Shown here piece after piece: positions 1 to 8,679 of a stretch of DNA of 64,000 bases. The notes below the pieces were generated by a model, which worked only from the letters and a program-made list of their open reading frames with translations, ran no database searches and was not told where the DNA came from. Every line of letters starts with the position of its first letter. Position 1 is the stretch's first letter. Source of the DNA: Streptosporangium carneum (lineage in GTDB: Bacteria; Actinomycetota; Actinomycetes; Streptosporangiales; Streptosporangiaceae); assembly GCF_027922005.1 (NCBI RefSeq), contig NZ_BSEV01000017.1, forward strand, positions 124,001-188,000. Reading direction: 5' to 3'. Both the position numbers and the translations under genes were made by a program.

Positions 1-1883
1 CGGTCGGCGGAGCCGTGGTGGAGCTTGGTCGAGCCCATGCTGAGCCGTTCGTTGGACAGCGTCGTGACCGCGAGCCTCCACCCGTGGCCGGGTTCCGCCA
101 CCAGGCACTCGTCCGGCACGAAGACGTCGTCGAGGAAGACCTCGTTGAACTCGGAGAGACCCGTGGCCTGGCGCAGCGGCCGCACGTCCACCCCGGCCGA
201 CCTCATGTCGACCAGGAAGTACGACAGCCCCTGGTGCTTGGGGACGTCGGAGTCGGTCCTGGCCAGGCACACGCCCCAGTCCGCCTCGTGGGCGAGCGAG
301 TTCCAGACCTTCTGCCCGCTGAGCGACCAGCCGCCGGGCACCTTCCGCGCCTTCGTGGACAGGCCGGCCAGGTCCGAACCGGCGCCGGGCTCGCTGAACA
401 GCTGGCACCAGATGACCTCTCCGCGCAGGGTGGGGCCGATGAAGCGCTCCTGCTGGGCGACGGTTCCGTGGACGAGCAGGGTGGGCAGCACCCACTCCCC
501 GATGACGGTCGTGGGCTGGTTCAGGCCGCGGCGCGCGAACTCCTCGCCGATCACGGCCTGTTCCGCCGGGCCCGCGCCCAGGCCGTAGGGGGGCGGGTAG
601 TGCGGTGCCACGAGTCCGGCCTCGGCCAGCAGGGCCCGGCGCGGGCCGCCGCGCCCCATGGCCCAGCCCGAGGAGGTCACCTCGTCCTCGGCGAGCGCGA
701 GGACCTCCTCCAGCGTGTTCCCCACCTGGGTGCGCAGCTCGGCGAGGTCGTCCTCGCCGACGAAGGAGAAGTCGCGCCTCCCCTTCAGCGCCGCCTCGCC
801 CAGCCGGGTCGCCCACCCTTCCTCCGCGCCCGCGGCGGAGGCGACGCTGATCGCGCGCCGCCAGTAGAGATGGGCGTCGTGTTCCCAGGTGAACCCGATC
901 CCGCCGAGCACGGTGACGCACTCCAGGGCGGTGTCGACCGCCAGCGGCAGCGCGGTGAGCGCGGCCTGCGCCGCGGCCAGTTCCTGCTGGAGCGGCGGCT
1001 GGCCCGCGGCCCTGGCGGCGTCCCAGGCCGCCGCGCAGGCGATCTCCGATCGGACCAGCATCATCGCGGCCTTGTGCTGCACGGCCTGGAAGGCGCCCAC
1101 GGGGCGGCCGAACTGCACGCGGTTCCTGGCGTGCTCGACCGCGGTGTCGAGACACCAGTCCGTGATCCCGCTCGCCTCCGCGGCGAGCAGGGCGTTGACG
1201 GTGAGGTCCACGCGGGCGGGCGTGAGCCCCCGGAGCGTCCGCTCCTCCTCCACCCGGTGCGCGTCGAGTCCGAGGCGGCCGACCGAGCGGGTCAGATCGG
1301 TCCCGTCTGCGGCGTCGACCGCCGCCGAGGGGCCCTCGGCCAGCCGGAACCACAACGACTCGCCCGGGCGGCCCTCGACGTCGGCGCGCGCGATCACGAT
1401 CTCGGCGCCCGGAAGTCCCAGCACGGGCCCCGTGGTCCCGCTGACGGTCCACCCGTCGCCGCTCCGCGCCGCGCTGAGGCCCCGGCCCGCCACGAGGGCG
1501 CCGGTCGCCCCCTCGGCGAAGGCGGTCAGCAGTTCACCCGCCGGATTCCGGGAGCCGCGACCGGCCTCGCCGTCCGTCCCGGCTGAGGCGACCACGGCGC
1601 TGGCGAGCACCGTCGGCAGGTACGGGCCGGGGAACAGCGCCTTTCCCAGCTGTTCGACCACCACGGCCAGTTCGGGCAGGCCCGCCCCGCCGCCGCCGTA
1701 CTCCTCCGGCAGGTGCAGGCAGTGCAGGCCCAGAGGCAGCAGGGCGTCCCAGGAGTCAGGTCGGCCCCCTGCCGCGTACTCGGCGAACCGCGCTCGGGTC
1801 GCCTCGACCGGAGCGGTACGGCGCGCGAACGCCGCCACGCTCGCGGCGAGATCGCGGTGCTCGTCGTTCAAGGGGAGAGGCAC
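1..1883 (-). CDS. Two-domain (fused) acyl-CoA dehydrogenase, FadE34 type, 3' end outside window
   Basis: Flavin-dependent alpha,beta-dehydrogenation of an acyl-CoA, probably a bulky steroid-like side-chain CoA. About 627 residues are visible and the C-terminus lies beyond the left edge. The first acyl-CoA dehydrogenase unit (about residues 1-370) has the late-domain signature QFGRPVGAFQAVQHKAAMM and LGGIGFTWEHDAHLYWRRA. A second unit follows (from about 400) with FAD/substrate motifs LFSEPGAGSDLAGL and GQKVWNSLAHEAD. Two fused units in one chain are typical of FadE34-like enzymes of about 700-740 residues; most other actinobacterial steroid dehydrogenases are separate alpha and beta chains. 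The GTG start at 1883 has GAGGA about eight bases upstream. It is the last visible gene of the operon, 45 bp after the thiolase. Substrate is inferred from neighbours. Confidence 0.85.
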   Translation of the reverse strand, partial: MPLPLNDEHRDLAASVAAFARRTAPVEATRARFAEYAAGGRPDSWDALLPLGLHCLHLPEEYGGGGAGLPELAVVVEQLGKALFPGPYLPTVLASAVVASAGTDGEAGRGSRNPAGELLTAFAEGATGALVAGRGLSAARSGDGWTVSGTTGPVLGLPGAEIVIARADVEGRPGESLWFRLAEGPSAAVDAADGTDLTRSVGRLGLDAHRVEEERTLRGLTPARVDLTVNALLAAEASGITDWCLDTAVEHARNRVQFGRPVGAFQAVQHKAAMMLVRSEIACAAAWDAARAAGQPPLQQELAAAQAALTALPLAVDTALECVTVLGGIGFTWEHDAHLYWRRAISVASAAGAEEGWATRLGEAALKGRRDFSFVGEDDLAELRTQVGNTLEEVLALAEDEVTSSGWAMGRGGPRRALLAEAGLVAPHYPPPYGLGAGPAEQAVIGEEFARRGLNQPTTVIGEWVLPTLLVHGTVAQQERFIGPTLRGEVIWCQLFSEPGAGSDLAGLSTKARKVPGGWSLSGQKVWNSLAHEADWGVCLARTDSDVPKHQGLSYFLVDMRSAGVDVRPLRQATGLSEFNEVFLDDVFVPDECLVAEPGHGWRLAVTTLSNERLSMGSTKLHHGSAD

Positions 1884-1928: not shown

Positions 1929-3071
1929 TCAGAGCCGTTCGAGGATCAGGCAGGTGGTCGCGGCCGAGGCGCAGATGGCGATCATCGCGGTCTGCCGGTC
2001 GCGGCGTTCGAGCTCGTCGAGGGCGGTCGCGATCAGCCTGATCCCGGTCGCGCCCGCGGGGTGGCCGAGCGCGATGGCGCCGCCGTTGACGTTCAGGAGT
2101 TCCTCGTCGACGTCGTGGGCCCGGGCGAACGACATCGGCACCGAGGCGAACGCCTCGTTGACCTCGAAGAGGTCGATGTCGCCGATCGTCATCCCGGTCC
2201 GCTTCAGCACTCTCGAGGCGGCGGCCACGGGGCCGTCGAGCATGAACTCGGTGTCTCCCCCGATCACGCACTGGCCCAGGATGCGGGCCCTCGGGACGAC
2301 GCCGAGCGAGCGGGCGCGCTCCCGCGACATCAGGACGGCGGCGCTCGCGCCGTCGGACACCTGGGATGACGTGCCCGCGGTGTGCAGGCCGTCCTCCTTC
2401 GTCGGTTTGAGCCTGCCCAGCGCCTCCATGCCGGTCTCCCTGAGCCCCTGGTCACGGTCGACGACCTGGGCGTCCGCCCCGTCCTCGCCCGGCACGGAGA
2501 CGGGGATGATCTGGGAGTCGAAACGGCGCGCGTCCCAGGCCCGCCGGGCCCGCTCCTGCGAGCGCAGGCCGAACGCGTCGAGGTCCTGGCGGGTGAGCCC
2601 ACGCCGGCGGGCGATCCGGTCGGCCGCGGTGTACTGGTCCGGCATGTCCACCGACCAGTCGGCCGGGCGCGGAGTCCCCAGGCCCAGACCCACCTTGGCG
2701 GTGAGCGGCACCCGCGACATCAGCTCGACGCCGCAGGCGACGCCGACGTCGAGCGTGCCCATGGCGATCTGCCCGGCGAGCAGCAGCACCGCCTGCGCGG
2801 CCGTTCCGCACTGGGCGTCGACGGTCGTCGCGCCGGTGTCCGTCGGCAGGCCCGCGTGCACCCAGGCGGTGCGGGCGATGTTCCCGAACTGCTCGCCGAT
2901 GGGCGTGACACACCCGCCGATCACCTGCTCCACGAGCTCGGGGTCCAGATCCAGCCGATCCAGCACCCCGCGTTGGGCGCGGCCGAGAAGGTCGGCGGCG
3001 TGCACTCCGGAGAGCCAGCCGTTCCTGCGTCCGAACGGCGTGCGCGCCGCGTCAACGATGACCGGTTCCAT
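1929..3071 (-). CDS. Thiolase (acetyl-CoA acyltransferase, FadA5/FadA6-like)
   Basis: Thiolytic cleavage of a 3-oxoacyl-CoA, 380 residues, the normal thiolase length. The nucleophilic cysteine is in VDAQCGTAAQAV, the NEAF motif is present, and the active-site histidine is in GGAIALGHPAGATG. The C-terminal motif is odd: most thiolases have C-x-G-G-G-x-G, but here the cysteine is kept and the glycines are replaced (AICASAATTC). This could alter the oxyanion loop or favour a bulky substrate. I chose the ATG at 3071 because AAGGAG sits eight bases upstream; a second ATG at 3089 would add six residues. Either start overlaps the end of the upstream SDR gene, so the two are translationally coupled. 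Confidence 0.85.
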   Translation of the reverse strand: MEPVIVDAARTPFGRRNGWLSGVHAADLLGRAQRGVLDRLDLDPELVEQVIGGCVTPIGEQFGNIARTAWVHAGLPTDTGATTVDAQCGTAAQAVLLLAGQIAMGTLDVGVACGVELMSRVPLTAKVGLGLGTPRPADWSVDMPDQYTAADRIARRRGLTRQDLDAFGLRSQERARRAWDARRFDSQIIPVSVPGEDGADAQVVDRDQGLRETGMEALGRLKPTKEDGLHTAGTSSQVSDGASAAVLMSRERARSLGVVPRARILGQCVIGGDTEFMLDGPVAAASRVLKRTGMTIGDIDLFEVNEAFASVPMSFARAHDVDEELLNVNGGAIALGHPAGATGIRLIATALDELERRDRQTAMIAICASAATTCLILERL

Positions 3072-3915
3072 CGGCCTGCTCCTTTCCATCGAGACCTCTC
3101 ACGTCGATTCCCCACTCCTTGATCAGGTCGAGGCTCACGAAGCTGCGGCCGGTGACGTCCTCGGCGCAGTCGCACAGCGCGACGACCGCCTCGACCATCT
3201 CGGCCATGGACTCCACCTGGTCGGGCCGGATCGTGTCGCCGACGAGCGCGGCGGCGCCCTCGCTGAGGACGGCGGCGCGCGGCTCGACGGTGTTCACCCG
3301 GATTCCGCTGCCGTGGAGCTCGGCGCCCAGTCCGTTGTTGATCCGGTTGAGCGCCGCCTTGGAGGCGGCGTAGACCGCGAGCGACGTCCCCGGCGGGACC
3401 AGCTGGAACGGAGGTCCCTGCCGCGGCCGGGCGCTGGCACTGGAGACGTTGACGATCCAGCCCGCGCCGCGGGCGCGCATTCCCGGGATGACGCTCTGCA
3501 TCAGGTCGAGGGGCGCGTGCACGTTGGCCTCGAACACCACCTTCCGCCTGTGCAGCGGGAAGTCCTCCAGCGGCTGGTAGATCGCCGCCGCGGCGTTGTT
3601 GACCAGGATGTCGATCGGCCCGCCGAGCAGTTCGGCCGCGGTGGGGACGACGTCCCGCCGCGCGTCCTCGTCCGTGAGGTCGGCGACGACCGTCTCGACC
3701 CTGGCGCCGTGTTCCGCGAGACGCTCCGCGGTCTGCTCCAGGCTTCCCGCCAGGCGGTCGTGCCGGGACAGGGTACGGGCCGTGATCACCACGTCCGCCC
3801 CTTCCGCGGCGAGCCGTTCGGCGATGCCGGCGCCGATGCCCCGGCTGGCCCCGGTCACCAGCGCCCTGCGTCCCTCGAATCGTTTCGTCCCCGTTGTCAG
3901 GGCTGTCACTTCCAT
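3052..3915 (-). CDS. SDR-family NAD(P)-dependent oxidoreductase
   Basis: Short-chain dehydrogenase of 287 residues. The Rossmann motif TGASRGIG lies near residue 20, NNAAA near 110, a catalytic serine in NVSSASA, and YAASK is the catalytic Tyr-Lys pair. In this operon it most likely oxidises a 3-hydroxyacyl-CoA (HSD/hydroxyacyl-CoA dehydrogenase role) or a ring hydroxyl; the sequence alone does not decide. The ATG at 3915 overlaps the stop of the DegT-family gene by ten bases (a GTG at 3909 is also possible), and its 3' end overlaps the thiolase start, so it belongs to the same transcript. Confidence 0.85.
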   Translation of the reverse strand: MEVTALTTGTKRFEGRRALVTGASRGIGAGIAERLAAEGADVVITARTLSRHDRLAGSLEQTAERLAEHGARVETVVADLTDEDARRDVVPTAAELLGGPIDILVNNAAAAIYQPLEDFPLHRRKVVFEANVHAPLDLMQSVIPGMRARGAGWIVNVSSASARPRQGPPFQLVPPGTSLAVYAASKAALNRINNGLGAELHGSGIRVNTVEPRAAVLSEGAAALVGDTIRPDQVESMAEMVEAVVALCDCAEDVTGRSFVSLDLIKEWGIDVRGLDGKEQADGTGHR

Positions 3916-5114
3916 GCCGCCGCGAACCGGTGGATGCTGTCGGTGATCCGCCTGACCTCGGCGTCGCTGAGGCCGTGGCTCATGCCGAGGGTCATGCCGC
4001 GTTCGAAGACCGCGTCGGCGCAGGGCAGCCCCTCCTCGGGCTGGCGGAACTCGACGCCGGCCATCATCGGGTGCCGGGTCACGTTGCCGCTCCACACCGT
4101 CCGGGTGTCGATGCCGTCGGCCTCGACGGCCTCCTGCAGGTCGCTGCGGCTGAACGGCGCGTCCTTGTTGATCATCACCGGGTAGCACAGCCAGGCGGTG
4201 TCGAGGTCCGCGGTCTCGCGCGGCACGGTGAAGAACTCGGGGTGGCCGCCGTAGGCGGCCGTGTACGCCGCGAAGATCTCCTTGCGCCGCCTGTAGTTGT
4301 CCTCCAGCTTGTTCAGCTGCTGCACGCCGTAGGCCGCTCCCAGTTCCGACGGCTCGAAGTTCCACGGCAGGACGTCGAAGATGAAGTCGTTGTCGTAGTC
4401 GACGCCGTCGAGGTCCTCGCGGAAGACCCGGCCGGTGCCGGAGGTGCCGAACAGGTTCGGCTCGGACCTGCGGCCCCACCGGCGCAGCAGCAGGGCCCTG
4501 TTGCGAAGCTCGTCGTCGTCGACCATCACCATGCCGCCCGTGCCCGCGCAGGTGATGATGTGCGCCATCGAGAAGCTTGTGACGCTGATGTCGGCGCGGG
4601 CGCCCGTGGGCGTGCCCCGCAGGGTGGGGCCCAGGGCGTCGCAGGAGTCCTCGATCACCTTCAGGCCGTGCCGGTCGGCGATCTCGCGCACGGCGTCCCA
4701 GTCGGGGGCGTTGCCGGCCAGGTTCGGCAGCAGGATCGCCCCGGTCCTTTCCGTGACCATCGCCTCGATCTTGGTCACGTCCACGTTGTAGGTGTCCGGT
4801 TCGACGTCGACGAAGACCGGCACCAGTCCCGCGCGGACGATCGGCGCGACGTCGGTGGAGAAGGTGAGCGGCGAGGTGATCACCTCGCTGCCGGCCGGGA
4901 GGCCGAGCAGTTCGACGGCCAGGTAGAGCGCGGAGGATCCCGAGTTGCACATGACGCCCAGCGCCTTGCCGCTGAGGGCGGGGACGCGCGTCTCCATCTC
5001 GTTGACGTGCCGCCCGATCCGCAGGCCTTGGTGCCCGCTGCGCAGCACGTCGAGGACGGCCTGGATCTCCTCTTCTCCGTGCACCGCCCGGGCGTAGGTG
5101 ATTCGTTCGGTCAT
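3906..5114 (-). CDS. DegT/DnrJ/EryC1-family PLP/PMP enzyme, ColD/RfbH-like with His for catalytic Lys
   Basis: Fold-type I PLP-family protein of 402 residues. Sugar aminotransferases of this family have S-F-x-x-x-K, with lysine forming the internal aldimine. This protein reads SFSMAHIITCAGTGG, with histidine at the lysine position. The same exchange is known in the PMP-dependent 3-dehydratases E1/RfbH and ColD, which remove a hydroxyl group beside a ketone. The C-terminal part (TVWSGNVTRHPMM) also resembles ColD. The extra cysteines of the E1 iron-sulfur site are not seen, so it is closer to ColD. ColD/E1 have E-G-G after the histidine; here it is T-G-G. It is embedded in a beta-oxidation operon, 40 bp after the aldolase-like gene and overlapping the SDR. 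Its true substrate is unknown; a deoxygenation step on a hydroxylated CoA intermediate is inference. Confidence 0.8.
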   Translation of the reverse strand: MTERITYARAVHGEEEIQAVLDVLRSGHQGLRIGRHVNEMETRVPALSGKALGVMCNSGSSALYLAVELLGLPAGSEVITSPLTFSTDVAPIVRAGLVPVFVDVEPDTYNVDVTKIEAMVTERTGAILLPNLAGNAPDWDAVREIADRHGLKVIEDSCDALGPTLRGTPTGARADISVTSFSMAHIITCAGTGGMVMVDDDELRNRALLLRRWGRRSEPNLFGTSGTGRVFREDLDGVDYDNDFIFDVLPWNFEPSELGAAYGVQQLNKLEDNYRRRKEIFAAYTAAYGGHPEFFTVPRETADLDTAWLCYPVMINKDAPFSRSDLQEAVEADGIDTRTVWSGNVTRHPMMAGVEFRQPEEGLPCADAVFERGMTLGMSHGLSDAEVRRITDSIHRFAAAWK

Positions 5115-5153: not shown

Positions 5154-6338
5154 TCAGCCGTCGGCGCCGAGCACGAGCGCGCTGTGCGGCACGGGCGATC
5201 CGCCGGTCACGAGAACGTTCTCGATCGGCTTGGCCGGCTGGTTCGTCGAGGTGCCGCGGATCAGGCGCACGCCCTCGGCGATCCCGTTGACTCCGTGGAT
5301 GTAGCCCTCGCCGAGCTGTCCGCCGTGCGTGTTGACGGGCAGCCTGCCGTCGACCTCGAGGTTGCCGTCGGCGACGAAGTCCTTCGCCTCACCGAGGCCG
5401 CAGAAGCCGTACTCCTCCAGCTGGAGCAGGACCATCGGGGTGAACGCGTCGTAGAGCACGGCCGCGTCGATCTCCGCGGGCCCGAGGCCGGCCTGACGCC
5501 ACAACTGGTCGGCGACCAGGTTGACCTCGGGCAGCCTGTCGATGTCGTCGCGGTAGTAGCTGCTCATCGAGATCTGCTGCGGGCCGACGCCCTGGGCGGC
5601 CGCCCTGATCACGGCGGGCGGGTTGGGCAGGTCGCGGGCCCGCTCGGTGCTCACGATGACCAGCGCCTGCCCGCCGTCGCTCTCCTGGCAGCAGTCGAGC
5701 AGGCGCAGCGGCTCGGCGATCCAGCGGGAGTTCTGGTGGTCCTCCAAGGTGATGGGACGCCCGTAGAACCACGCCTTGGGGTTGTTGGCGGCGTGCTTGC
5801 GCGAGAGTACCGAGATCCGCCCGAAGTCCTCGCTGGTGGCGCCGTACTTGTGCATGTACAGCATCGCCAGGAACGCCTCCTGCTGGGCGGGCGTCAGCAG
5901 TCCGTAGGGGTTGATCCAGTTCCGGTACTCCTGGTCGGTGGAGGGGGTGTAGGCGAAGGGCGGCGGACCGGCGCCGAACCGGTGGCCCGAGCGCTCGTTG
6001 AAGGCGCGGTACACCACGACCACGTCCGCGACGCCCGTCGCCACGGCGAGGGCGGCCTGCTGCACCGGGGCGCAGGCGCCGCCGCCGCCATGCGGGATGC
6101 GGCTGAAGAACGAGAGCCGGGGAATGCCCAGCGCGCGGGCGACGGCGATCTCCGGGTTGTTCTCCATGGTGAACAGCGAGAAGCCGTCCACCTCCGCCGC
6201 GTCGACGCCCGCGTCGTCCAGGGCGGCCAGCACGCACTCGCAGGCGAGCTGCCACTCGCTGCGCCCCGAGTCCTTCGAGAACTCGGTCGCGCCGATGCCG
6301 GCGATCGCCGCGGCGCCGGAGAATCCGCCTCCGGTCAT
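5154..6338 (-). CDS. Thiolase-fold lipid-transfer protein / steroid side-chain retro-aldolase (Ltp2-like)
   Basis: Thiolase-superfamily protein of 394 residues, SCP-x/Ltp2 type. It lacks the usual cysteine motifs of degradative thiolases and carries family segments such as FSRIPHGGGGACAPVQQAALAVATG, split here as SFFSRIPHGGGG followed by ACAPVQQAALAVATG, and the C-terminal NTHGGQLGEGYIHGVNG. Known Ltp2 proteins perform retro-aldol cleavage of a 17-hydroxy steroid propionyl-CoA and work as a complex with a DUF35-bearing hydratase. The DUF35 and MaoC genes are directly upstream, which supports that role. The ATG at 6338 overlaps the MaoC stop (ATGA) and is preceded by GGAGACAG. An ordinary lipid carrier or thiolase role cannot be excluded. 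Confidence 0.8.
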   Translation of the reverse strand: MTGGGFSGAAAIAGIGATEFSKDSGRSEWQLACECVLAALDDAGVDAAEVDGFSLFTMENNPEIAVARALGIPRLSFFSRIPHGGGGACAPVQQAALAVATGVADVVVVYRAFNERSGHRFGAGPPPFAYTPSTDQEYRNWINPYGLLTPAQQEAFLAMLYMHKYGATSEDFGRISVLSRKHAANNPKAWFYGRPITLEDHQNSRWIAEPLRLLDCCQESDGGQALVIVSTERARDLPNPPAVIRAAAQGVGPQQISMSSYYRDDIDRLPEVNLVADQLWRQAGLGPAEIDAAVLYDAFTPMVLLQLEEYGFCGLGEAKDFVADGNLEVDGRLPVNTHGGQLGEGYIHGVNGIAEGVRLIRGTSTNQPAKPIENVLVTGGSPVPHSALVLGADG

Positions 6339-6745
6339 GCTCTGTCTCCTTCCGTCCGCGCCACCGTCACGTCGGCGGTCACGTGGACTCCCCGTTCGTT
6401 GCCGCCGGTCACCCGCAGCGTCACGGTCTCCGTGCCGGTCCCGGTGACCTCGCCGGAGAAGCGGAGGGTGTCGCCGGGGAAGGCGGGCACCCCCAGCCGC
6501 AACGAGACCCGGGTGATCCGCGAGTTCGGCCCTGACCAGTCGGTCACATAGCGGTCGACGAAACCGTTGGTCGAGTTGATGCTCAGGAAGATGTCCGGCG
6601 TGCCGCGCCGCTGGGCCTTGCCCGGGTCGTGGTGCACGTCCTCGAAGTCCTGCGAGGCGATGGCGGCCGCCACGATCGTCGTACGGTTCAGGGGCAGGTC
6701 GAGCGTCGGCAGCGCCGTGCCGACCGCGCAGTCGTCCAGGTTCAT
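6335..6745 (-). CDS. MaoC-like hot-dog hydratase (ChsH1-like)
   Basis: A 136-residue single hot-dog domain of the MaoC dehydratase family; the hydratase-2-like segment around residues 30-50 contains FEDVHHDPGKAQ, with the D-x-x-x-x-H pattern of the active site. Such short subunits normally pair with a second MaoC domain to hydrate an enoyl-CoA, as ChsH1 does with ChsH2 in steroid side-chain degradation. It overlaps the DUF35 gene upstream and the Ltp2-like gene downstream, both by ATGA, so stoichiometric co-translation is likely. The partner is probably the hydratase at 7182-7742. Confidence 0.8.
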   Translation of the reverse strand: MNLDDCAVGTALPTLDLPLNRTTIVAAAIASQDFEDVHHDPGKAQRRGTPDIFLSINSTNGFVDRYVTDWSGPNSRITRVSLRLGVPAFPGDTLRFSGEVTGTGTETVTLRVTGGNERGVHVTADVTVARTEGDRA

Positions 6746-7185
6746 CGCTCCTCCTCACGCTTCTCACGGCGGCGGAGCCGGGGCAGGATCTCGCCGTGCG
6801 CGTGCTCGGCGAAGCACACCTCCAGCTCCATGCCGAACTCGAGCTCCTCACGGTCGACGCCGGAGACGTCGGCGACGAGCCGGGTCCCTTCCTCCAGGTC
6901 GACGAGGCCGACGACCAGCGGGTAGTCGAACGCGTCGTCGCGGGGGTGGTGGATGACCGTGTAGCTGTGCAGGGTGCAGCGCCGGCTGGACTCCACCGTG
7001 TCCCAGTCGAAGGACCTGCACTCCGGGCAGGCGGGCGCGGGCGGATGGCGCAGGGTGTGGCAGTCCGCGCACCGCTGGATCTCCAGGCGTCCCTCGCGCG
7101 CCGCCCGGAACCAGAACTCGTTGTCCTGGGTCACCACCAGCCGCGGGACCGCGGTCCGCACGACGCTCCGCGGGGCCTCGCTCAT
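6742..7185 (-). CDS. DUF35 OB-fold protein with zinc ribbon
   Basis: A 147-residue protein with an N-terminal rubredoxin-like zinc ribbon, CADC...CPEC (cysteines near residues 37-55), followed by an OB-fold (SYTVIHHP... YPLVVGLVDLEEG). In steroid degradation the DUF35 region is normally the C-terminal part of ChsH2 and docks the Ltp2 aldolase. Here it is a free-standing gene between two MaoC genes. ATG at 7185 overlaps the upstream hydratase stop (ATGA), and its own stop overlaps the next ATG. The C-terminus is a basic/acidic tail rich in R and E. Confidence 0.85.
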   Translation of the reverse strand: MSEAPRSVVRTAVPRLVVTQDNEFWFRAAREGRLEIQRCADCHTLRHPPAPACPECRSFDWDTVESSRRCTLHSYTVIHHPRDDAFDYPLVVGLVDLEEGTRLVADVSGVDREELEFGMELEVCFAEHAHGEILPRLRRREKREEER

Positions 7186-7742
7186 ACGGCCTCCTCCCTG
7201 GAGTCCGGAGCGAATCTGAGCAGCCGGAACCGCTCCTTCACCAGGAGATCGCCGTCGGAGTTCAGATACTCCTTCAGCAGGGTGACGAAGCACCCCTCTC
7301 CCAGTGCGGTCCTCTTGAACGGCGAGATCGCCTCGATGGTGAAACGCGCGGTGACGTGGTCGCCCGGGTGCAGCTCCCGGAGGTATTCCTGCTCCACGTT
7401 GGTCGCGACCACGGACGTGTAGCCCGCTTCGTCGAGCATGTTCATCAGCCGCGAGTACGCGAAGTCCTCGACGGCTCCTTCGGCCCGCAGCCGCTGGACC
7501 TCCCGGTGTCTGCGGTAGCCTGCCATCACCCACGTCGAGACCATCGCGGGCGGGCAGACGACGTCCGGCCTGCCGGTGGCCCTGGCGGCCTCCCGGTCCA
7601 CGTACACCGGGTTGTGGTCGTCGTGCGCCTCCACCCAGTTACGGATCATCGCTTCGTTGACGGCGTATCTCGCGACTCGCGGTGGCTCGGCGACACTGCC
7701 GACGAACCGGCCGAGCTCCGCTTCGAGACTCTGGACGGGCAC
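7182..7742 (-). CDS. MaoC-family N-terminal dehydratase domain protein (ChsH2 hydratase half)
   Basis: First gene of the operon, about 186 residues. It matches the FAS1-like/MaoC N-terminal dehydratase domain: WVEAHDDHNPVYVDREAA, then PPAMVSTWVM, and a C-terminal beta-rich part ending in FRLLRFAP. In typical ChsH2 this domain is followed by DUF35 in the same chain; here a stop codon separates the two, coupled by ATGA. Start is uncertain: GTG at 7742 has AAGGGG six bases upstream and is preferred; GTG at 7748 is also in frame. The KstR2-like box lies only 18 bp upstream of the start, so binding there would block transcription of the whole operon. Confidence 0.75.
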   Translation of the reverse strand: MPVQSLEAELGRFVGSVAEPPRVARYAVNEAMIRNWVEAHDDHNPVYVDREAARATGRPDVVCPPAMVSTWVMAGYRRHREVQRLRAEGAVEDFAYSRLMNMLDEAGYTSVVATNVEQEYLRELHPGDHVTARFTIEAISPFKRTALGEGCFVTLLKEYLNSDGDLLVKERFRLLRFAPDSREEAV

Positions 7743-7759
7743 CTTCACCCCTTCACTTG

Positions 7760-8094: not shown

Positions 8095-8679
8095 TTGGGC
8101 CCGATGCCAGACCGGCGCGAGAAGATCCTCGCCGTCTCGGCAGAGCTGTTCGCCACCAAGGGAGTCGCGTCGACGACCGTACGCGACATCGGCGAGGCGG
8201 CCGACGTGTTCTCCGGCAGCCTCTACCACCACTTCAAGTCCAAGAACGCGATCGTCGCCGAGCTCCTCACCCGGTACATGAACGACATCCAGCGGCGGTT
8301 CGCCGAGGTCGTGGAACGCTCGCAGAGTCCGCAGGAGGTCCTGCGCGGCCTGATCCTGGAAACGCTGGTCATCATCGAGCAGCACCCCCACCCCACGGCG
8401 ATCTACCAGAACGACCGGCGCTACCTGCGCGACAACGGCCTGCTCGAGCCCGTGGACCACGCCTCCCGCTCGGTCCGGGAGTACTGGATGACCGCGATCC
8501 GCGCGGGCGTCGCAGACGGGAGCCTGCGTGACGACATCCCCGCGGAGGTCTTCTACCGGTCCGTTCGCGACTCACTGTGGGCGTCGATGCACTGGCCCAT
8601 CCGCGGCGGCTACTCCACCGGCGAGTTCGCCGACCTGCTCACGAGGTTGTTCTTCGGGGGGTTCGCCACCGAACGCTGA
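8095..8679 (+). CDS. TetR-family regulator, KstR2-like
   Basis: A 194-residue TetR repressor. The N-terminal HTH includes TTVRDIGEAADVFSGSLYHHF, here quoted as TTVRDIGEAADVF and SGSLYHHFKSK, and the ligand domain has IYQNDRRYL; both segments parallel KstR2 (SGSLYHHFxSK, IYQDE). KstR2 represses CoA-thioester steroid ring degradation and is released by a CoA ligand. This gene is divergent from a CoA-dependent steroid-type operon and a perfect KstR2 box lies between them. The start is a TTG at 8095 with AAGGAG six bases upstream; the ATG at 8104 is too far from it. The ligand here may differ from the mycobacterial one. Confidence 0.8.
   Translation: MGPMPDRREKILAVSAELFATKGVASTTVRDIGEAADVFSGSLYHHFKSKNAIVAELLTRYMNDIQRRFAEVVERSQSPQEVLRGLILETLVIIEQHPHPTAIYQNDRRYLRDNGLLEPVDHASRSVREYWMTAIRAGVADGSLRDDIPAEVFYRSVRDSLWASMHWPIRGGYSTGEFADLLTRLFFGGFATER

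Follow-up and report, generated by a model that had tools for sequence, protein, structure and literature searches.

What is a relative of the nucleotide-sugar 3-dehydratases doing in an operon that resembles those for steroid degradation? The question is raised by a stretch of 64,000 nucleotides from Streptosporangium carneum (NZ_BSEV01000017.1, positions 124,001 to 188,000; here called the window), in which a gene for a DegT-fold protein (DegT) overlaps a gene of the short-chain dehydrogenase/reductase (SDR) family. We found that soil and water actinobacteria carry this DegT gene within a steroid-degradation operon. We propose, with a probability of roughly 0.5, that the protein is a ColD-like dehydratase dependent on pyridoxamine 5'-phosphate (PMP), recruited from sugar chemistry, that would act with the SDR as redox partner to take away a ketone-adjacent hydroxyl group from an intermediate of steroid-type catabolism.

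The DegT protein is of the E1/ColD type

The gene and its key residues were placed by translation of the open reading frame and by alignment, and the protein was assigned by profiles and predicted fold in addition:

3906..5114, minus strand: DegT-fold, E1/RfbH-related, PMP-dehydratase-like protein of 402 amino acids, ATG start
4560..4562, minus strand: codon for His185, at the site of the pyridoxal 5'-phosphate (PLP) lysine in aminotransferases
4533..4541, minus strand: T192-G193-G194, within A-G-T-G-G, at the site of E-G-G in E1/RfbH

The 402-residue product matches the Pfam family DegT_DnrJ_EryC1 at 274 bits. Its best NCBIfam profile is RfbH, at 260 bits; this misses the equivalog cut-off of 423, which RfbH proteins in relatives pass with 647 to 659 bits. 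The best PDB match among those listed, both by sequence and by predicted fold, is E1, or RfbH, the cytidine diphosphate (CDP)-4-keto-6-deoxyglucose 3-dehydrase. In the alignment, H185 of SFSMAHIIT pairs with the first histidine of SFYPAHHIT in E1 (PDB 3bcx), which is H220, and the lysine of the E1 mutant H220K (PDB 3bb8) stands in the same column. The window protein is thus an E1/ColD-type protein, nearest to E1/RfbH by sequence, profile and predicted fold. Both this assignment and the histidine in place of the PLP lysine, as in the PMP-dependent 3-dehydratases, had been put forward in an initial annotation made from the sequence alone, and both are borne out.

We scanned a genome collection of 84,980 species, confirmed 507 relatives, and kept the best 80 of these as loci, all with a DegT match above 50% identity. 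The alignment held 84 actinobacterial rows (window included), five alphaproteobacterial rows and five RfbH rows; locus L089 was omitted, its recovered frame being just 181 amino acids, and trees were built by a quick method. His185 is kept in 84/84, 5/5 and 5/5 rows, respectively, and the catalytic lysine of the DegT sugar aminotransferases is absent. A usable active-site lysine, which the initial annotation had named as counterevidence, was not found in the alignment. The cofactor-site residues that we compared are identical across the 84 actinobacterial rows, down to about 56 to 57% identity, and D159 and H185, both common to RfbH, are invariant among them.

In addition to the histidine, the window protein shares D156, D159, N252, G343, N344, R347 and P349 with E1/RfbH. 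It differs in being only 31 to 33% identical and in having lost three of the four cysteines in the columns that we take to be the [2Fe-2S] ligands of E1, with only C158 kept. An ordinary RfbH was rejected because of the missing cysteines and the missed cut-off. ColD, the guanosine diphosphate (GDP)-4-keto-6-deoxymannose 3-dehydratase, likewise has histidine for lysine and is described in excerpts of a 2022 review (PMC8987622) as lacking an iron-sulfur cluster motif, and hence the window protein too would be expected to follow a hydrolytic route that depends on glutamate. ColD is, however, more distant than E1 (24 to 25% identity), and the window gene lies in no recognized GDP-sugar cluster.

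Gene content supports an operon for steroid side-chain degradation

The genes around DegT in the window are as follows:

3..1883, minus strand: 5' part (627 codons) of a double-length acyl-coenzyme A (CoA) dehydrogenase gene that continues past the window start (annotation)
1929..3071, minus strand: thiolase of the steroid 3-ketoacyl-CoA type (NF005889, 595 bits, cut-off 515)
3052..3915, minus strand: SDR-family dehydrogenase, a recurrent DegT neighbor (annotation and locus comparison)
5154..6338, minus strand: Ltp2-type steroid aldolase subunit (NF005892, 650 bits, cut-off 469; best PDB match 6ok1, 572 bits)
6335..6745, minus strand: MaoC-type hydratase B (profile annotation)
6742..7185, minus strand: ChsH2 C-terminal (ChsH2-C) zinc-ribbon/OB protein of the DUF35 type, the presumed partner of Ltp2 (PF01796, PF12172)
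7182..7748, minus strand: MaoC-like (FAS1_DH_region) hydratase A (profile annotation)
8104..8679, plus strand: divergent TetR regulator (annotation)

The operon reads MaoC, ChsH2-C/DUF35, MaoC, Ltp2, DegT, SDR, steroid thiolase and acyl-CoA dehydrogenases. Past the window (L013) it continues with two further acyl-CoA dehydrogenases, a small gene of the thioesterase family and a CoA ligase, which scores above the cut-off for CasG, steroid-24-oyl-CoA synthetase (821 versus 750 bits). Ltp2, the thiolase and CasG thus all pass curated cut-offs, and together with the ChsH2 C-terminal domains they support the assignment to steroid side-chain degradation, in line with the steroid-type operon recognized in the initial annotation. 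The neighbors that it had listed, namely an overlapping SDR gene and flanking thiolase, aldolase-like (Ltp2) and hydratase genes, were also correct; the SDR/DegT overlap is 4 nucleotides (nt) with a GTG start at 3909 or 10 nt with an ATG start at 3915. Ltp2, ChsH2-C/DUF35, MaoC-type proteins, acyl-CoA dehydrogenases, steroid thiolase and CasG are shared with the cas genes of Rhodococcus jostii and the igr operon, and the double-length acyl-CoA dehydrogenase is comparable to FadE34. The window operon differs from these in the addition of DegT and SDR and in its Ltp2, which together with the Ltp2 proteins of other DegT operons forms a separate clade (support 100, in a tree mostly of genomes chosen for DegT). 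A second Ltp2 operon is present in the same genome, on contig C3.

The linkage of DegT to Ltp2 is conserved across genera

The initial annotation had called for a survey of co-occurrence with Ltp2, MaoC and DUF35 genes, and the survey revealed linkage across genera. In the closest group, of 14 loci from six genera (L014 to L027), Ltp2 lies 35 to 97 nt upstream of DegT and the thiolase downstream in 14/14. The thiolase, the double-length acyl-CoA dehydrogenase and two other acyl-CoA dehydrogenases share the strand of DegT and lie within 6 kb of it in every locus, as are the MaoC-type and ChsH2-C genes in 13/14, the exception (L015) beginning near a contig edge. Linkage peculiar to one genome was therefore rejected. 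The operon is also present in Rhodococcus erythropolis (strain NBRC 15567, L023) and relatives.

The DegT gene itself is rare in the genomes sampled. It was detected in 4/149 sampled relatives (E-values up to 1e-60), 6/394 genomes of the class (1e-90) and 6/396 genomes of the phylum (1e-100), the own genome being counted each time, and a scan of viral contigs yielded no relative. Ltp2 (E-values up to 1e-120) occurs in 103 of the 394 class genomes, including all six with DegT. The probability of this co-occurrence by chance is about 2.9e-4, or 1.1e-3 when the own genome is excluded, uncorrected for relatedness of the genomes. In one genus, 5/37 genomes carry DegT, and the same five have an adjoining Ltp2 at 86% identity.

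The operon of Amycolatopsis taiwanensis (L155, G479:C21:38001-58000) is whole and in the same order and has neither DegT nor SDR between Ltp2 and the thiolase. Its Ltp2 falls inside the clade of DegT-operon Ltp2 proteins, and the single DegT gene found in this genome (E-values up to 1e-80) sits on a different contig. Because this operon has neither gene, DegT and SDR look like an add-on module, a separable pair within the side-chain operon.

The nearest relatives found outside Actinobacteria lie in sugar clusters

In a plasmid collection, 59 of 72,556 records match DegT at 1e-40. Among these, 23 alphaproteobacterial records, at 47 to 51% identity, hold the nearest relatives that we found outside Actinobacteria. 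We examined five of the 23 regions (L161 to L165, from Sinorhizobium, Leisingera, Roseibium, Palleronia and Ensifer). The genes rfbF and rfbG directly precede DegT in all five, as annotated in three and by tblastn in two; a GT2 gene and one for an NAD(P)-dependent oxidoreductase follow it in 5/5, and a methyltransferase gene is present in 4/5 (L162 to L165). These regions constitute a deoxysugar cluster with an RfbH-like histidine enzyme that lacks the usual cysteines.

All five proteins keep His185, have N-G-G (as G-N-G-G) and lack cysteine at columns 217 and 219. They differ from the window protein in their CDP-hexose cluster setting, in residues 88 and 341 (T and F), and in their place in a 36-row quick tree against RfbH, where 27 actinobacterial rows form a clade (support 100) with the alphaproteobacterial rows outside. 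At these two positions, D88 and W341 are present in 84/84 actinobacterial rows, whereas T and F are present in 10/10 sugar-type rows, E1/RfbH included. D88 and W341 may line the pocket.

Since the nearest non-actinobacterial relatives found sit in sugar clusters, the DegT family probably derives from sugar chemistry. The alphaproteobacterial rows lie outside the actinobacterial clade, lack the cysteines and have N-G-G, which suggests that the loss of the iron-sulfur motif and the E-G-G change probably predate the move into catabolism. The initial annotation was correct that E-G-G is replaced by T-G-G, but the replacement is not telling. Residue 192 is variable within the actinobacterial family (N 40, T 34, Q 4, S 2, G 2, I 2; n=84), and CDP-sugar-cluster relatives are also without E-G-G (N-G-G in 5/5); its lack was therefore rejected as a mark of new function. 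Homologues confined to sugar clusters, which the initial annotation had listed as evidence against itself, were not what we observed, yet the nearest non-actinobacterial relatives found do come from such clusters. Its interpretation as a whole stands for the type of protein, the type of operon and their linkage; it does not stand for the meaning of E-G-G, and the enzyme is not confined to steroid operons and has a probable sugar origin.

A proposed dehydration of a steroid-type intermediate

We infer the cofactor, the reaction, the role of the SDR and the substrate as follows. The overlapping SDR, or an upstream step, would form a ketone beside a hydroxyl group on a steroid-type acid or CoA ester, and PMP would condense with this ketone to a ketimine. 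Abstraction of a proton from C4' of PMP by His185 would then be accompanied by loss of the neighboring hydroxyl. With the iron-sulfur cysteines missing, the enamine would be hydrolyzed as in ColD, yielding a deoxy ketone, ammonia and PLP, from which glutamate would regenerate PMP, while the SDR would make or use the ketone. The presence of CasG suggests a C24, bile-acid-like substrate, and the target in the window operon would most likely be a C24 carboxylate steroid of the bile-acid type with neighboring oxygens, such as a 6,7-oxygenated bile acid or a 16-hydroxy-17-ketone arising after the Ltp2 step. The 12-hydroxyl of cholate and 2,3- or 3,4-oxygenated rings were also weighed; the cholate 12-hydroxyl is not known to lie next to a ketone in the pathway.

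Several observations weigh against this proposal. Ltp2 lies on the same strand within 6 kb of DegT at only 16/80 loci, so the DegT family is not steroid-only. All 24 named DegT genomes tested contain Ltp2, but these were picked from the 80 loci for having DegT; four genomes with DegT in the phylum sample only (G585, G732, G751 and G760) gave no Ltp2 in a search made just at 1e-190. In the closest group the SDR is present at 50% identity or more in 13/14 loci, with none in L017 and one 3.4 kb upstream in L018. Among the 80 loci, 29 have such an SDR on the same strand within 6 kb (20 within 60 nt) and 51 do not, L078 having one on the opposite strand and some contigs being short. The A. taiwanensis operon without the pair indicates that the step is dispensable for the core pathway, and the aminotransferase 7l7x equals ColD in fold score against the DegT protein. 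That the real substrate carries neighboring oxygens is a guess, and substrate and activity are predictions from sequence and operon context.

Three other explanations were considered. An unlikely one, though the strongest of these, is a PMP enzyme with a different outcome, either lysine-free amine transfer to a steroid ketone or dehydration to an enone or an aromatic ring. AHBA synthase, which aromatizes its product, shares the fold, and no electron-transfer partner was recognized among the annotated operon genes. Excerpts of the review cited above add that SpnQ without its reductase acts as an aminotransferase with PLP and glutamate, but also that no amine transfer was seen with ColD or E1 in a comparable setting (PMC8987622), and the invariant D159 and H185 are those of RfbH. 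It is improbable that DegT continues to act in the synthesis or processing of a sugar, nucleotide-linked or glycosidic, such as a saponin sugar or a cell-surface deoxysugar, with its place in the steroid operon being secondary. The plasmid rfbF-rfbG clusters would favor this, as would the nucleotide-sugar epimerase/dehydratase-family gene that adjoins DegT in L076 and the activity of the characterized PMP 3-dehydratases E1, ColD and SpnQ, which, according to the same excerpts, act on nucleotide sugars in biosynthesis (PMC8987622). It is opposed by the CoA-ester operon in all 14 close loci, by D88 and W341, and by the search for rfbF and rfbG, which found no orthologue of either in the window, in L013 or at the 80 loci and returned just three weak nucleotidyltransferase matches at 27% (L080, L088 and L091). 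The lack of these orthologues likewise led us to reject the operon as a sugar cluster.

Least probable is that the protein has given up catalysis and serves to bind steroids or as a scaffold. The missing lysine and the A. taiwanensis operon without the gene would fit such a role, but the cofactor-site residues compared are unchanged over the 84 rows, and, in the review excerpts, the known dehydratases use this histidine for catalysis (PMC8987622). We retain the ColD-like dehydratase as the preferred explanation.

More tentatively, and at less than even odds in our judgment, the whole actinobacterial clade may be the first case of a PMP-dependent dehydratase in catabolism. Its ancestors would be sugar enzymes from which the iron-sulfur cluster had probably already gone, and during breakdown it would strip ketone-adjacent hydroxyls from steroids and other polycyclics together with an SDR and, in some lineages, two amidohydrolases. 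If the clade does act on steroid-type acids, PMP dehydratase chemistry would have crossed from sugar biosynthesis to catabolism, and actinobacteria would gain a route to clear away hydroxyls on the rings or side chain that stand in the way of degradation. Excerpts of PMC8399759 list the genes for 12-hydroxyl transformation in R. jostii RHA1 as unknown. Among the papers listed from PubMed Central literature under CC0, CC BY and CC BY-SA licenses, none reports a DegT-type enzyme in steroid degradation, which only weakly suggests that no such report exists, and the words DegT and aminotransferase do not occur in excerpts of PMC8399759, PMC7593942 and PMC9782250.

Other genomic settings of actinobacterial members

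In Prescottella, Rhodococcus and Nocardia (L035, L038, L039, L041, L043 and L046), DegT is followed by an amidohydrolase, an SDR, a second amidohydrolase and a double acyl-CoA dehydrogenase. The two amidohydrolase-family genes were placed by locus comparison:

L035:11432-12673: first amidohydrolase-family gene beside DegT
L035:13529-14389: second amidohydrolase-family gene beside DegT

On the same strand within 6 kb, the first (at least 35% identity) occurs at 14/80 loci and the second (at least 45%) at 9/80. Against the PDB, the first matches PtmU3 and DitZ best, and decarboxylases were also matched; these matches may hint at CoA-thioester chemistry. In Pfam assignments for 150 of 157 neighbor proteins around 43 loci, from our own gene calls, the most frequent domains among the first 25 of 107 families are those of SDR (25), thiolase (10) and amidohydrolase (10).

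Some loci are unusual in other ways. In an acidimicrobial genome (L172:9186-13027), a second DegT copy (51%) is accompanied by an F420H2-dependent quinone reductase-family gene and two amidohydrolases. Plasmid pLRE138 of R. erythropolis R138 (L160) carries a 69% DegT copy adjoining a VOC gene and a TetR gene, with Ltp2 not annotated within 9 kb. At L173:8250-9833, the C-terminal end of the DegT frame continues into unrelated sequence, probably through a frame error. Two metagenome bins titled Bifidobacterium breve (L084 and L087) cluster with bins of acidimicrobial or unnamed actinobacterial origin and probably carry the wrong label.
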